64,000 nucleotides of DNA from Clostridia bacterium. GTDB taxonomy: Bacteria; Bacillota; Clostridia; Christensenellales; CAG-917. How positions within the stretch are numbered: the first letter of the stretch is position 1; every line of letters starts with the position of its first letter. The notes under the pieces are model-generated. The model saw only the letters and a list, made by a program, of their open reading frames with translations. It was not told the DNA's origin and made no database searches. The DNA lies in the NCBI GenBank assembly GCA_017618055.1, contig JAFZVB010000014.1:1-64000 (forward strand), in the 5' to 3' direction. Below, one piece after another: positions 2,534 through 55,616 of this stretch. Position numbers and translations under genes: made by a program.

Positions 2534-4293
2534 GCGAATTAAAAAGAAATGATAAATTAGTTAGCCGTAAGTTTTATCAATACTTACTTCCATCTATAAT
2601 GATGATTTTTGCAATGCAATTTGGTTCATTGCTAGATGGTATTATTGTTGGAAACTTCTTAGGAAATGATGCTCTTAGTGCTACTGCAATTGTTATGCCC
2701 ATTTTATATTTCATTCAATTGCCTGGATTTGCACTTGGTATTGGAGGCTCAATAGTTGTTGCAAACTTATTAGGGAAGAGAGATATTCTAACAGCAAAAA
2801 AGGTTTTCTCTCTTGCTTGTATTATTGGTATGGCAATATCTTTCATATTCACAATAATAAGTTTCTTTGTTTGTAGACCAATTGCTTCTGCATTCTCACA
2901 AGATCCAGTTTTATTAGAATATGGATACCAATATATATTTATATATATGGTGACAGACCCAGTTATCACATTTGTTCTCTTAATGAGTTCATTTATGGCT
3001 GTAGATAATAATCCAAAATTATCTTCATTAACTCTAATTATTGGAAATGTAGTAAAAGTTGCACTTGAAGTTCTATTTATAAAAGTATTCAACATGGGAA
3101 TGTATGGCGCAGCTGCATCTACACCTGTAGGATACTTTATAGGAGCAATGACAGTATTCTTCTATATGAAGAGCAAGAAGAGATTATTATCCTTCACATT
3201 CAAACTAAAAGGTTCTCAATTAAAAGAATTATTAAAAGCATCGGCATCTAATGCATTAAATTTTGCATTGGCAGCTGTAGAAATGTTGGTAATTAATATA
3301 TTTGTTGCAAGAACTATAACACAAGATTTAGATATTATCATATTCGGTCTTGTATCTAATATGGTATTCGTCTTTGACTTATTTGCAGGTGGTATTCAAA
3401 ACATCATACCAACACTTTGTGGAATCTTCTATGGAGAGAAGGATCATTACTCTTTGAAATCTATAACAAGGAAAATCTATATTATTAATATAGCTGTAAC
3501 AGTTTTCTTCACAGTATTTATTCTTGCATTGCCAAATGTATATTCAATAATCTTTGGTTATTCCGGAGGAACAGATACAGAAAGGGTAAACTTCATGTTA
3601 AGAATATTTGTTCTAGCATTCATACCATATGAAATAAACAAGTTCATAACAAATTACTATCCATCTATAGACAAACCAACAGTATCTATTATAAATGTAA
3701 TTTTGAAGGATTTAGTAATTGTATTACCAGTAGCACTTTCATTATTACTTACAAGAGGTTTAGAAGGTTATGTAATATCACAAGTTGTAACTCAAGCAGC
3801 CGCTATGATATTTACATATGTAATTATTCTTGTTTATCAAGTTGTTAAGAAGAAACCACTTAGCATATTTATGTTTGAAAAAACAGAATTTAAGACTTTT
3901 GATGTATCTTTAAATAACGAATTAAATAATGCTTCTGAAATTTCTAAACAACTTACTGATTTTGCTTTGGAGAACAACGTTCCTAATAGAGAAAGTCAAA
4001 TAGTTGGCTTGGCATCTGAAGAAGTTGTTAACAATATTATAACCTATGGTTATAAAAAGAATAACATACAAAAATATATAGATGTAAACCTTAAGATTAA
4101 TGAAGATACTTTAGTTCTAACAATTAGAGATGATGGATTACCATTTGATCCAACACAATATGAGTTTGACGATAACGAAGAATACTCAACAAGTGGAATA
4201 AAACTTATTAAGTCATTAACAGACTCTATGTCTTATATGAGAATATTAAATTTAAACAACACAGTTTTCGAATTAAAAATTAAAGGAGAATAA
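2530..4293 (+). CDS. MATE-type efflux transporter fused to an RsbW-like ATPase domain
   Basis: Residues 1 to about 445 are a polytopic MATE-family transporter: about twelve hydrophobic segments, starting after a short basic N-terminus. Residues about 455-587 are a cytoplasmic GHKL ATPase domain of the anti-sigma-factor kinase (RsbW/SpoIIAB) type. It has an N-box (ASEEVVNNI, about residues 495-503), a nucleotide-binding DDGLPFDP motif (about 534) and a later SGIKLI motif. MATE proteins are usually 440-470 residues, so the extra 140 residues are a true C-terminal fusion in one uninterrupted frame. The next two genes supply a STAS protein and a phosphatase, the natural partners of such a domain. 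I infer that the domain binds or phosphorylates the STAS protein and that this gates the transporter. The substrate may be the product of the upstream synthetase. Fold assignments are strong; the regulatory role is inference. Confidence 0.9.
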   Translation: MSELKRNDKLVSRKFYQYLLPSIMMIFAMQFGSLLDGIIVGNFLGNDALSATAIVMPILYFIQLPGFALGIGGSIVVANLLGKRDILTAKKVFSLACIIGMAISFIFTIISFFVCRPIASAFSQDPVLLEYGYQYIFIYMVTDPVITFVLLMSSFMAVDNNPKLSSLTLIIGNVVKVALEVLFIKVFNMGMYGAAASTPVGYFIGAMTVFFYMKSKKRLLSFTFKLKGSQLKELLKASASNALNFALAAVEMLVINIFVARTITQDLDIIIFGLVSNMVFVFDLFAGGIQNIIPTLCGIFYGEKDHYSLKSITRKIYIINIAVTVFFTVFILALPNVYSIIFGYSGGTDTERVNFMLRIFVLAFIPYEINKFITNYYPSIDKPTVSIINVILKDLVIVLPVALSLLLTRGLEGYVISQVVTQAAAMIFTYVIILVYQVVKKKPLSIFMFEKTEFKTFDVSLNNELNNASEISKQLTDFALENNVPNRESQIVGLASEEVVNNIITYGYKKNNIQKYIDVNLKINEDTLVLTIRDDGLPFDPTQYEFDDNEEYSTSGIKLIKSLTDSMSYMRILNLNNTVFELKIKGE

Positions 4294-4296
4294 ATT

Positions 4297-4593
4297 ATGG
4301 AAATTAAAATCACACATGCAGACAATTTAACAATTGAATTAACTGGAAGATTAGACACAGTTACTTCTACAGAACTTGCAGATGCAGTTGCAAAAGAAAC
4401 AATAACCGAGAAGCTTGTTATCATTGATTTTAAGAATCTTGAATATATTTCTTCAGCAGGTTTACGTGTATTACTCGCATTAAAGAAACAATTCACAGCA
4501 GAAGATAGAGATTTCGAAATTCACAATCTTAATGATGTAGTAAAAGAAGTATTTAATGTAACAGGATTTATTAATATATTGTCAGTAAAATAA
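4297..4593 (+). CDS. STAS-domain anti-anti-sigma-factor-like protein
   Basis: A 98-residue single STAS domain of the SpoIIAA/RsbV type. The typical N-terminal strand and GRLDT turn are present, followed by the IDFKNLEYISSAGLR segment. Ser53 aligns with the serine that RsbW-type kinases phosphorylate and PP2C phosphatases dephosphorylate. It starts 3 nt after the transporter-kinase fusion and ends 1 nt before the phosphatase gene, so it sits between the two proteins expected to modify it. No sigma factor gene is present in the window, so the usual output of a partner switch is missing locally. The family call is secure; the specific partners are inferred from position. Confidence 0.93.
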   Translation: MEIKITHADNLTIELTGRLDTVTSTELADAVAKETITEKLVIIDFKNLEYISSAGLRVLLALKKQFTAEDRDFEIHNLNDVVKEVFNVTGFINILSVK

Positions 4594-35908: not shown

Positions 35909-35938
35909 TTGACAATATAACTATATATATTATATATT
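35909..35938 (+). promoter_or_regulatory. Promoter of the OLE RNA
   Basis: A perfect TTGACA at 35909-35914, about 18 bp of AT-rich spacer and TATATT at 35933-35938. The exact -10 is ambiguous within an alternating AT tract. Confidence 0.65.
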
Positions 35939-35944
35939 TATAGT

Positions 35945-36540
35945 CCAAATGGTGGTGCAGTATTCTAGTCAGAACCTGCCGACCCGAAGACGGGGGTAAA
36001 ATATCGTCACAGGGCACAACGGTGAAACCTTTTGTAATTGCTTGAGTTGCCCAAACTTGGGTGGTTGCTGAAGGGAATGGATTTTGGGCTTGTTATAACG
36101 GCATATAAACCTAGACCCAACTTCCGGGAGACCCATATCTGTAGTCGAACCTAGATTTGATTATGGACTGGGATACAAACCTGCTATGCGGTACTTCGTG
36201 TGCTGTGTACAGAGTAGCCTGCTTTGAGTGAAATATTAGGGATCTATGGAACAACGTATTTGATATTTGGCCAAACATCATTTACGATCGCCTAGTGAAA
36301 TAACTTTTGCAAAACAAGATAAGGGCGGAAAGTTTCTGTCAAGGAAAACTTCTAGACTGTTCCTAAGGAAACATTTAGGGGATTATAGTGTGTACTAAGT
36401 GGCAATTCGGTAATGTTTGAGGTAACTCGCAGATTACAAGAGGCAAGTGGAAACAGCATGTACGGTGACGACATGTTCTTGTGAAGAGAAATTCAACCGA
36501 ACCTAAAGACGCAAGGTTTACCCTAATTGTTGCCACCATT
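35945..36540 (+). ncRNA. ole: OLE RNA (ornate large extremophilic RNA)
   Basis: About 590 nt of non-coding sequence with markedly higher G+C than the surrounding genes and no sustained reading frame. The ends can pair: GGTGGTGC at about 35951 with GTTGCCACC at about 36526. Length, position and company match OLE RNA: the class is about 600 nt and is encoded just upstream of its membrane partner gene oapA, in a neighbourhood shared with tlyA, nadK, argR and recN, which is exactly the order here. In Halalkalibacterium halodurans OLE forms a membrane ribonucleoprotein linked to stress tolerance. The call rests on length, context and structure rather than a covariance model. A group II intron was considered but no reverse transcriptase or intron ends are visible. 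Confidence 0.85.
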
Positions 36541-36553
36541 GATATTAAAAATT

Positions 36554-52346: not shown

Positions 52347-53399
52347 ATGGATAGAAGAATTACACGTAGTTTTAAGATTGGAAATATTGGTATAGGTTCA
52401 AATTATCCTATATCCATTCAATCTATGCTCAAAGTCCAAAACACAGATGTAGAGGGTTGCTTAAATCAAATTAAGGAACTCGAAAAAGTACATTGTGATT
52501 TAATTAGAGTATCCGTTCCAGATGAACAAAGTCTAAAGACTTTTGAGATCTTACAAAAAAATACGTATATACCTCTCATTGCAGATATTCATTATTCATA
52601 TGATCTTGCATACAAAGTATTAGAACTTGGTGCAAAAAAAATCAGAATGAATCCTGGCAATATGCCAAACTTTGCTAACATAGAAAAACTTGTATCAGAA
52701 CTCAAAAACAACCATGCTTGTATTAGAATTGGAGTTAATTCTGGATCTATAAATAAGTCTTACGAAAACCTTAATGAAGTAGATAAAATATTACAATCTA
52801 CATTAGACTGTTTGTCTGTCTTTGAAAACTTTGGTTTTCATGACATAGTTTTAGGACTCAAATCATCCAGTATAGAAACGACAATAGAAGCTAATGAAAA
52901 AATAGCAAAATTAACAGATTATCCTATGCATGTTGGTCTAACTGAATCCGGTCCATTAAGAGAAGGACTAGTTAAGTCTACAATTGCTATTTCTAGACTC
53001 CTTGAAAAAGGCATAGGAGACACAGTACGTGTTTCTTTGTCTAGTTCTCCAATCGAAGAAGTAAATGCAGCTAAGACCATTTTAAAGAGTCTAGGACTTA
53101 AAAAAGATGTTCCAGAGTTAGTATCATGCCCAACTTGTGCAAGAACTAAGATAGATGTACAGCTTTTATCTGAAAAAATAGAGAAAAGGTTAATGGAAAT
53201 AGACAAAAATGTCAAGATAGCAGTCATGGGATGTCCGTTAAATGGGATAGATGAAGGAAAAGACGCAGATTTGGGTATCGCTGGTGGTGAAAAAGAGTCT
53301 ATAATATTTGTAAAAGGCAAACAAGTCGCCAGAATTAGTAATGAAAATATGGTAGAGGAGTTTATGAATTTTGTTCATAAATACCTAGAGGATAAATAA
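52347..53399 (+). CDS. ispG: 4-hydroxy-3-methylbut-2-enyl diphosphate synthase (flavodoxin)
   Basis: 350 residues. The TIM-barrel half begins NYPISIQSMLKVQNTD, and the C-terminal half carries the cysteines for the iron-sulfur cluster: CPTCARTKID and MGCPLNG. Most homologues read GCPVNGPGEA at the latter site; here it is GCPLNGIDEGKDADLGIAGG, with the Gly-Pro pair changed to Ile-Asp. Its stop overlaps the next gene. Confidence 0.95.
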   Translation: MDRRITRSFKIGNIGIGSNYPISIQSMLKVQNTDVEGCLNQIKELEKVHCDLIRVSVPDEQSLKTFEILQKNTYIPLIADIHYSYDLAYKVLELGAKKIRMNPGNMPNFANIEKLVSELKNNHACIRIGVNSGSINKSYENLNEVDKILQSTLDCLSVFENFGFHDIVLGLKSSSIETTIEANEKIAKLTDYPMHVGLTESGPLREGLVKSTIAISRLLEKGIGDTVRVSLSSSPIEEVNAAKTILKSLGLKKDVPELVSCPTCARTKIDVQLLSEKIEKRLMEIDKNVKIAVMGCPLNGIDEGKDADLGIAGGEKESIIFVKGKQVARISNENMVEEFMNFVHKYLEDK

Positions 53400-55006
53400 T
53401 GGCAGTAAAATTTGTAGAAGAATTTGAAAGACTAACAGACGGTCAATTTCCAATGTTGAAACTACATTCAGCAGATTACAAGTTTGATCAAAACAGTAAT
53501 ACTTCCACCTTAGAAGTAAAATTTATCATTTCTGCATATGAATTAAAACTATTCACAGAAGACCAAAAGCAAAAGGTTGAATCTGTAGTACAAAAGATGT
53601 TCAATGGTGTAGAAACCAAGGTATCTTTTATAAGAACTTTTGCAGATGAAATGGTAGTAAAAAACAAGGTGCTTGAATTTTTAAATTCAAGAAATGCATT
53701 TATTCTTAATAGTATTACAGCTGAAAACTTAAAAATTGATGTGGATGAAAACACAATAAAAATAGAGTTTATTTTTGATACTCCTATCTATTTAATGCTT
53801 AGCAATAATCAGTTCTTGGAACCATTCAAAGATTTCTTAAATATGAACTTCAACCAAGAGATTGAAATTATTCTTACAGAGAAGAAAGATATGCAAGTAT
53901 CAGAGTATACTCCAAGACTTATTCAAACAAGTGACGATATAGGATTAATCAAGATTTCAGGTCTTTCTATGGTATATGGAAGAAGAGGAATTAAGACCAT
54001 TTCGGAGATGCCATCATACATTGCAAACATTAAAGATCCAAGTCAAAATTGTACAGTTTGTGGAAAAGTTTCAGAATTCATAATTAAAGAGTATAAGAAC
54101 AAAAAGTATGATTCTAACGACCCCAAATCAGGTCCAGAGATGAAAAAACTTGTATCATTTAACATCTCAGACACAACAGGAAGAATAGGTTGTGTAGCAT
54201 TCCCAGATGAGAAAGATGTTGTATGTTTCCAACTAATTAAAGATGGAGATGAAGTTATCGTAAAAGGTAAGACACAACAAGATTGGAAGAACCCTGAAAT
54301 CCTATCTGTTTCTATAGATGCAGTAGCAAGATGCAAAATAGATTACTCATCCATTAAGTACAAGACATTTAAGGATTTGCCTTTAGAGTATTCTTGTGTA
54401 TCTCCAGAGCCATATGAAGATGGACCATTCTCAGTTGCTACAACACTCCTAGAACCACAATCTATGGAAGTCCCAACTTTATTAAAAGATAAAACCTATG
54501 TTGTATTTGACCTCGAAACAACTGGTGTTGATGCTGCTAAAGATGAGATTATTGAAATAGCTGCATGCAAGATGGTAAATGGTTTAGTTACAGAAACATT
54601 CCAAACACTTGTAAGACCAACAGAAAAGAGAATTCCAAGAGAAGTAGAAGAACTAACTCATATTACAAATGAAATGGTTCAATACTGTCAACCAATATCA
54701 AAGATATTGCCAGACTTCTTATTGTTCTGTGGAGACAATATTTTAGTAGGCCATAATATTGCAGGTTTTGATTATCTATTTATCGAAAGATATGCAAGAG
54801 CATTAAAGTACAAATTCAATAACGAAACAATAGATACTCTCATAAAAGCAAAAGAACTTCTTCCAAATAGAAAGGTTTATAAGCTTACAGATATTTCTGC
54901 AGATTATGGCATTTCACACAAGGATGCACATAGAGCTTTATCAGATGTTTTAGCCACAGCTGAACTCTTAAAAATCCTTGCAGTTGAGATGGATAAAAGA
55001 AAATAA
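53399..55006 (+). CDS. PolC-like protein with N-terminal, OB and DEDDh exonuclease regions but no polymerase
   Basis: 535 residues, at the standard polC locus between ispG and rimP. Residues about 1-165 resemble the PolC N-terminal domain, and about 210-330 an OB fold (LVSFNISDTTGRIGCVAFP, DGDEVIVKGKTQ) with an insertion holding CTVCGK. Residues about 365-530 form a proofreading exonuclease with FDLETTG (DxE), HNIAGFDYLF and HKDAHRALSDV, so the DEDDh set appears complete. The PHP region that normally surrounds the exonuclease in PolC, and the palm, fingers and duplex-binding domains, are missing; full PolC is about 1430 residues. The frame ends cleanly with KRK then TAA, followed by about 130 nt and rimP, with no polymerase remnant. 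It could serve as a stand-alone proofreader; that is inference. Confidence 0.85.
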   Translation: MAVKFVEEFERLTDGQFPMLKLHSADYKFDQNSNTSTLEVKFIISAYELKLFTEDQKQKVESVVQKMFNGVETKVSFIRTFADEMVVKNKVLEFLNSRNAFILNSITAENLKIDVDENTIKIEFIFDTPIYLMLSNNQFLEPFKDFLNMNFNQEIEIILTEKKDMQVSEYTPRLIQTSDDIGLIKISGLSMVYGRRGIKTISEMPSYIANIKDPSQNCTVCGKVSEFIIKEYKNKKYDSNDPKSGPEMKKLVSFNISDTTGRIGCVAFPDEKDVVCFQLIKDGDEVIVKGKTQQDWKNPEILSVSIDAVARCKIDYSSIKYKTFKDLPLEYSCVSPEPYEDGPFSVATTLLEPQSMEVPTLLKDKTYVVFDLETTGVDAAKDEIIEIAACKMVNGLVTETFQTLVRPTEKRIPREVEELTHITNEMVQYCQPISKILPDFLLFCGDNILVGHNIAGFDYLFIERYARALKYKFNNETIDTLIKAKELLPNRKVYKLTDISADYGISHKDAHRALSDVLATAELLKILAVEMDKRK

Positions 55007-55085: not shown

Positions 55086-55109
55086 GAGTGAGCCGGAAAC
55101 GACTCACTC
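55086..55109 (+). promoter_or_regulatory. Conserved-type hairpin in the rimP leader
   Basis: GAGTGAG pairs with CTCACTC around CCGGAAACGA, within the leader just before rimP. Hairpins with a GAGTG/CACTC stem are common in front of rimP-nusA in Firmicutes. It is followed by TTATTATG rather than a clean T-run, so an attenuator role is uncertain. Confidence 0.55.
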
Positions 55110-55136: not shown

Positions 55137-55616
55137 ATGAAAGAAACATATAATGCACAATTTCCAATAAGAGAAGACGTAAGAGTGGCCGTTAATGAGG
55201 TTATTTGCAGAATAGCACAAACTAACGGATATGAAGTTGTTGAAATAAAATATTTCAAAGAATACAAAAAATGCTCTTTAACAGTCTATGTTTGGAAGAA
55301 AGGTGGAATTCAAATAGATGATCTAGAAATTGTACACCAAGCAATTAGTGATGAGCTAGATTTATATGAGAGTGATTTCCCAGCAGAATATCAACTAAAT
55401 ATCTCATCTCCAGGTTTGGATAGAGCAATCGAAGATGAAGACGATTTTAGAAGAAACCTTGGTGAAGTCATCGAAATTACATATGATAACAATGGTAAAA
55501 AAGCAAAAATACACGGAGAATTGGCTGCATATACAGATGAAGATGTAACAATTTTATGTGGAAAAGAAAAAAAAGAAACAAAAATAAATAAGGTACTTCC
55601 GTACATTGAGTTTTAG
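55137..55616 (+). CDS. rimP: Ribosome maturation factor RimP
   Basis: 159 residues of the RimP fold, with GYEVVEIKYF, ISDELDLYESDFPAEYQLNISSPGLDR (conserved SSPG) and a C-terminal SH3-like tail. It aids 30S subunit assembly and precedes nusA as usual. Confidence 0.94.
   Translation: MKETYNAQFPIREDVRVAVNEVICRIAQTNGYEVVEIKYFKEYKKCSLTVYVWKKGGIQIDDLEIVHQAISDELDLYESDFPAEYQLNISSPGLDRAIEDEDDFRRNLGEVIEITYDNNGKKAKIHGELAAYTDEDVTILCGKEKKETKINKVLPYIEF

Follow-up and report, generated by a model that had tools for sequence, protein, structure and literature searches.

A domain-reduced PolC without polymerase or PHP domains at the polC locus of Clostridia, a putative proofreader for a single DnaE

How PolC and DnaE1 share the work of replication in Clostridia was left as an open question by a survey of about 2000 genomes, the accessible part of which records some Clostridia that have no polymerase but DnaE1 and some PolCs that lack the exonuclease, and describes no polymerase-less PolC (PMC3919608). 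A 2026 survey of about 3000 species distinguishes three polymerase combinations, none of the kind reported here (PMC12926913). In B. subtilis, the exonuclease of PolC removes the errors of DnaE in trans, within a stable template-DnaE-PolC complex, and synthesis by DnaE is stimulated by a polymerase-dead PolC (PMC5627055). As for contacts with the clamp, QxxLF is the binding consensus and QLSLF the motif of PolC (PMC12309361). We found no description of a polymerase-less PolC in the open-licence papers covered, in agreement with an initial sequence-only reading of this DNA, which knew of none.

The window, by which we mean the whole stretch of 64,000 nucleotides that was analysed, belongs to a genome of 1,576,270 bases in 28 contigs that is 95.3% complete (G000). 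Between ispG and rimP it carries a short gene, here called sPolC, which is a domain-reduced PolC and the positional ortholog of polC. The parts of the gene and its neighbours are the following:

52347..53399 (+): ispG, the upstream neighbour, whose stop overlaps the sPolC start; it adjoins short and full polC alike
53399..55006 (+): sPolC gene, 535 aa, an intact ORF with the layout NTD I - NTD II - OB - linker - DEDDh exonuclease
53399..53893 (+): PolC N-terminal region, aa 1-165, two small alpha/beta (KH-like) domains (AlphaFold2 and hhalign)
53942..54352 (+): OB domain region, about aa 182-318 (Pfam tRNA_anti-codon and structural alignment)
54389..54478 (+): disordered linker, aa 331-360, in place of the first PHP half (low pLDDT and spacer length)
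54437..54451 (+): degenerate clamp-binding-motif position ATTLL, aa 347-351, where relatives have QxSLF/QLDLF-type motifs
54479..55003 (+): DEDDh 3'-5' exonuclease domain, aa 361-535 (RNase_T match, structural alignment and catalytic residues)
55137..55616 (+): rimP, the downstream neighbour, followed by nusA and infB, conserved beside short and full polC

The ATG of sPolC overlaps the ispG stop (TAATG), and 130 bp separate the gene from rimP. The order cdsA-dxr-rseP-ispG-X-rimP-nusA-infB is common to short and full forms, and the assignment to the polC locus made by the sequence-only reading is borne out by related genomes, some of which have the short gene in this neighbourhood and others a full polC in the same place. 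An intergenic promoter that had been proposed after the stop was not recovered, as a simple promoter scan gave no + strand promoter in the 130-bp gap. The gap does contain, ahead of rimP, a perfect 7-bp hairpin (GAGTGAG...CTCACTC, 55086-55109, +), for which there was no Rfam match and which is possibly a rimP leader element; several relatives have a similar hairpin ahead of rimP (L107, L111, L113, L085 and L075). In three members of family f28 with genomes of about 0.8-1.3 Mb (L152, L153 and L154), ispG and dxr were not found at the locus, while the short polC still lies between rseP and rimP, with nusA also in order; a loss of the MEP isoprenoid pathway is possible in this lineage. The window of this small-genome Clostridia MAG also holds an OLE RNA (Ornate Large Extremophilic RNA) at 35936-36552 (+), a full-length Rfam match of 378.5 bits.

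Several lines of evidence identify the short gene as a PolC. Pfam finds RNase_T at aa 368-524 (8.7e-37) and tRNA_anti-codon, an OB domain, at aa 248-297, and detects neither a PHP nor a polymerase domain in the ORF. The top NCBIfam model is PolC PRK00448, which aligns aa 360-533 with positions 418-590 of 1445 and scores 164 bits against a cut-off of 873; in a whole-genome search, its positions 75-315 and 418-591 map to the sPolC ORF. Neither DnaQ model gives an equivalog-level match (TIGR01406, 69.5 bits against a cut-off of 222.7; PRK05711, 66.7 bits against 196). An hhalign comparison with full PolCs from the same order shows aa 20-160 to be homologous to their N-termini (probability 97.4, E 1.2e-11, 131 columns), and the catalytic DEDDh set is D371, E373, D458, H511 and D516. 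The intact frame, the PolC-like N-terminal and OB regions, the complete-looking exonuclease and the missing PHP and polymerase domains had all been noticed from the letters alone, and each of these observations holds.

The predicted structure agrees with this identification. AlphaFold2 modelled the entire protein with a mean pLDDT of 87 and the N-terminal region alone with a mean of 91 (about 96 for its two alpha/beta domains), and linker residues 343-354, with pLDDT under 50, are predicted to be disordered. The best Foldseek match of the model is PolC 9qpc, aa 190-535 pairing with its residues 218-594 (VIA-align) at an rmsd of 22.5, so that the domains match one by one and not as a single rigid body. 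The exonuclease superimposes on the PolC exonuclease of 9qrn with Z 23.7 and an rmsd of 1.4 over 171 residues. A fold search with the NTD returned weak matches to BON/KH-like alpha/beta folds; tau domain V was not among them, and the published relationship to tau was therefore not reproduced.

Other parts of PolC are missing. Across the clade sPolC measures 500-580 aa, compared with 1317-1517 aa for full PolC. The spacer between OB domain and exonuclease takes up 46-53 aa in the short form and 89-101 aa in full PolCs of the same order, in which it contains the PHP motif HxHTxMSxMD that the short-form spacer lacks. Everything that PolC has 3' of the exonuclease is missing too, including the C-terminal clamp motif: sPolC ends in MDKRK, without such a motif, whereas the full PolCs of the order end QLSLF-like. 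No polymerase remnant was found downstream, just as had been stated of the sequence after the stop. Since both PHP halves flanking the inserted exonuclease have been removed, plain truncation cannot explain the short form. One segment of the linker, LEYSCVSPEPYEDG, was considered as a remnant of the first PHP strand, as it resembles VELHLHTxMSxMDG, but it lacks the metal-binding His, homology was unsupported by any test, and the candidate was rejected. Taken as a whole, orthology to PolC with loss of the polymerase is in our view close to certain.

The rest of the genome shows which polymerase is left. A single PF07733 match, a DnaE of 1206 aa, makes up the C-family polymerases of the window's genome, and the polymerase positions of PRK00448 (613-914 and 1268-1434) match this DnaE alone. 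Searches with full-PolC and polymerase-domain models found no second PolC and no PolC-type polymerase there, which disposes both of a polymerase half encoded elsewhere and of a full-length polC to which this gene would be a redundant paralogue, two possibilities that the sequence-only reading had raised. Its other suggestion, that a different Pol III alpha subunit replicates and this protein is a separate, putative proofreader, is supported by the single DnaE, a pattern seen in all 45 short-gene genomes surveyed, and by sPolC being the sole PF00929 protein in this 95.3%-complete genome; an unlike DEDD-type ORF of 383 aa matches the PolC model weakly (28.6 bits). The DnaE has all nine PHP metal ligands (H12, H14, D23, H56, E81, H101, C151, D219 and H221), a set (HHDHEHCDH) kept in the 17 short-form genomes checked, as well as a QISLF motif. 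In a search for insertions that set the DnaE of the short-form clade apart, just one turned up, near residue 490, and it is short and poorly conserved. A single DnaE-type polymerase must thus copy the entire chromosome in short-form bacteria. Two short-PolC genomes have extra C-family polymerase ORFs with weak matches, of 807 and 1071 aa (G028:C7:35441 and G033:C1:18876), which are possibly DnaE2-like or of phage origin.

The short form is widespread within the order. Among 60 surveyed genomes, 45 have the short gene and 13 a PolC of full or near-full ORF length, always together with DnaE; none has both forms, and the two with neither are incomplete MAGs. This lack of co-occurrence rules out a paralogue beside full PolC in the surveyed genomes. 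A 563-aa exonuclease ORF in one full-PolC genome (G057, L102) was likewise dismissed as a second short PolC, as its C-terminal exonuclease alone matches. In a broader sample of 248 genomes from the order, the short gene is present in at least 142, spread over 15 families (f1, f5, f7, f8, f9, f13, f14, f16, f18, f19, f20, f24, f28, f29 and f32). The polymerase search usually returned a single match in these families and three pieces, one DnaE and two PolC, in full-PolC families. Across 196 genomes of the class, and among the matches listed, those spanning the N-terminus all fell inside this order, and those outside it were nearly all exonuclease domains within full PolCs.

In a FastTree phylogeny of seven locus-neighbour genes, all 41 short-form genomes included fall into one clade (SH-like support 0.765), which attains a support of 1.0 when enlarged by the full-PolC family f11. 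The placement of f11 is not firm in detail, and the tree is most simply read as one ancestral loss: the ancestor of about 15 families lost both PHP halves and the polymerase and kept NTD I - NTD II - OB - exonuclease. It follows from a single event that the anticorrelation between short form and PolC must not be counted as many independent observations. In comparisons with two congeners, sPolC has a dN/dS of 0.10 and 0.22; in the closest comparison, constraint is strongest on its N-terminal region (0.055), and the exonuclease domain is also under purifying selection in the window's genus. The pattern fits a gene that, once reduced, was kept for a long time by purifying selection. In a tree of exonuclease domains, the active short forms group with a support of 0.85. 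That tree alone is no proof of PolC origin, given that another DEDDh protein (L105) is placed among the PolC exonucleases; it is the locus and the N-terminal homology that prove it.

The linker now found in place of the first PHP half often carries a clamp-type motif. Q..[LIMF][FLIM] occurs within a 25-residue linker in 39 of 65 distinct sPolC homologs (for instance as QLDLF, QFSLF, QSSLF or QENLF), compared with a mean of 1.7 and a maximum of 7 of 65 in 2000 trials with composition-shuffled linkers, a test that overstates independence because the homologs share ancestry. That the motif persists in almost every family, although the segment is disordered, speaks for a function. In the window's genus the Gln has been lost, leaving ATTLL or a similar Q-less version, and clamp binding by the window's copy is therefore doubtful.

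Likewise, the exonuclease has not been kept everywhere. All five DEDDh residues are present in 58 of the 65 homologs; the catalytic set is missing in the other seven, namely all three of family f16 (L083, L147 and L148), three of four in f19 (L084, L150 and L151) and one in f32 (L160). These exonuclease-dead proteins keep the ORF, the locus, the N-terminal and OB domains and sometimes the linker motif. Proofreading thus cannot be the sole function everywhere, and the retention of the protein after loss of the exonuclease in at least three families indicates a non-catalytic role there at least; a second, structural role of short PolC is likely. One f16 genome with an exonuclease-dead sPolC also encodes a 450-aa protein with an N-terminal DEDDh exonuclease (L103 1-8001, ORF 3085-4437, -) and, judged by eye, an apparent BRCT domain.

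We consider it rather probable that sPolC proofreads in trans, in association with the clamp and DnaE. The short protein would be an epsilon-like subunit of the DnaE replicase, its N-terminal and OB domains holding it at the fork on the clamp loader, DnaE or DNA, and its DEDDh domain removing DnaE misincorporations in trans. In most lineages, the QxxLF-type motif in the new disordered linker would tether it to the beta clamp. In the exonuclease-dead minority, the protein would have a structural role and the DnaE PHP domain would probably be the remaining proofreader. The precedent from B. subtilis is inexact, since its DnaE is DnaE3 and the clostridial DnaE is DnaE1; furthermore, with a PHP site that is apparently active, DnaE could in principle do without a second proofreader.

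This last point also favours a different role, in which sPolC has left the replicase and become a repair or maturation exonuclease, for example in recombination 3'-end trimming, mismatch repair or Okazaki-fragment processing. An intact DnaE PHP active site may cover replicative proofreading, the sole PF00929 exonuclease of a 95%-complete genome may fill several exonuclease jobs, and the window's genus lacks the clamp motif. We nevertheless hold this to be unlikely, given that the region peculiar to PolC, the N-terminus, is kept and is the most constrained (dN/dS 0.055), that the clamp-type motif is conserved in most families, and that trans proofreading of DnaE by PolC is known. Somewhat less likely still is a mainly structural replisome part, a connector of clamp and clamp loader whose OB domain binds ssDNA and whose exonuclease activity is secondary. 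Such a part would account for the persistence of the remaining protein in f16 and parts of f19 and f32, and a contact of the PolC NTD with the clamp loader is proposed in the accessible part of the survey cited above (PMC3919608). It agrees poorly with catalytic residues that are intact in 58 of 65 homologs and with purifying selection on the exonuclease in the window's genus, and in one exonuclease-dead genome (G050) another DEDDh protein may have taken over.

Two further explanations deny that the gene is a functional unit. Its shortness relative to PolC and the decay of exonuclease motifs in a few lineages could be taken to mark a dying polC remnant or an assembly artefact. This is very improbable, as the ORF is intact and at the same locus in at least 142 genomes from 15 families and has a dN/dS of 0.10-0.22; moreover, the PHP half before the exonuclease has gone without remnant, an outcome that simple 3' truncation cannot give. 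The same architecture recurs in more than 140 other genomes, which excludes an assembly deletion at position 55006, a possibility that the sequence-only reading had mentioned. The least probable of all is a split gene with its polymerase half encoded elsewhere, because full-PolC and polymerase-domain models match DnaE alone in the window's genome, the 45 surveyed short-gene genomes have no PolC-type polymerase, and the missing gene would need to lie in the absent 5% of every genome.

If sPolC is a trans-acting proofreader, it looks, by analogy with B. subtilis, like an evolutionary end point of the division of labour between PolC and DnaE. Whether this amounts to a third type of bacterial Pol III core, with DnaE1 and a PolC-derived epsilon having arisen from an ancestral PolC and DnaE1 in at least 15 families, with a new clamp-binding linker and, in some lineages, a later dead scaffold, is to our minds evenly balanced. 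The clade provides a natural separation of PolC proofreading from the polymerase; it suggests that DnaE1 by itself suffices for replication there and that what could not be spared of PolC was its fork-associated exonuclease module, and closely paired full- and short-PolC lineages make this testable by comparison. By inference, ibezapolstat and other PolC inhibitors should have no effect on these gut commensals, which have no PolC polymerase. sPolC will escape any survey in which the polymerase domain serves to define PolC.

Compared with the PolC of Bacillota (PRK00448/TIGR01405), the short form shares the locus, the NTD pair, the OB domain and the inserted DEDDh exonuclease, in the same order; it differs in having neither PHP half, no palm, thumb and fingers, no HhH and no C-terminal QLSLF, and in its internal clamp-type linker motif. 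With DnaQ/epsilon of E. coli Pol III it has in common a separate DEDDh exonuclease beside a DnaE replicase and, in most sPolC lineages though not in the window's copy, a clamp-type motif in a flexible segment. Unlike epsilon, it is derived from PolC, carries large N-terminal KH-like and OB domains, and has its exonuclease at the C-terminus. The exo-less PolCs reported from Clostridia and Negativicutes, as far as the accessible part of that survey describes them, exemplify PolC domain loss in related bacteria, but the loss is the opposite one, as they retain the polymerase and drop the exonuclease (PMC3919608). The mechanism proposed for sPolC resembles that of B. subtilis, with its ternary complex in which the exonuclease of PolC acts on the errors of DnaE (PMC5627055); there, PolC is also the main replicase, whereas here just its proofreading part survives.
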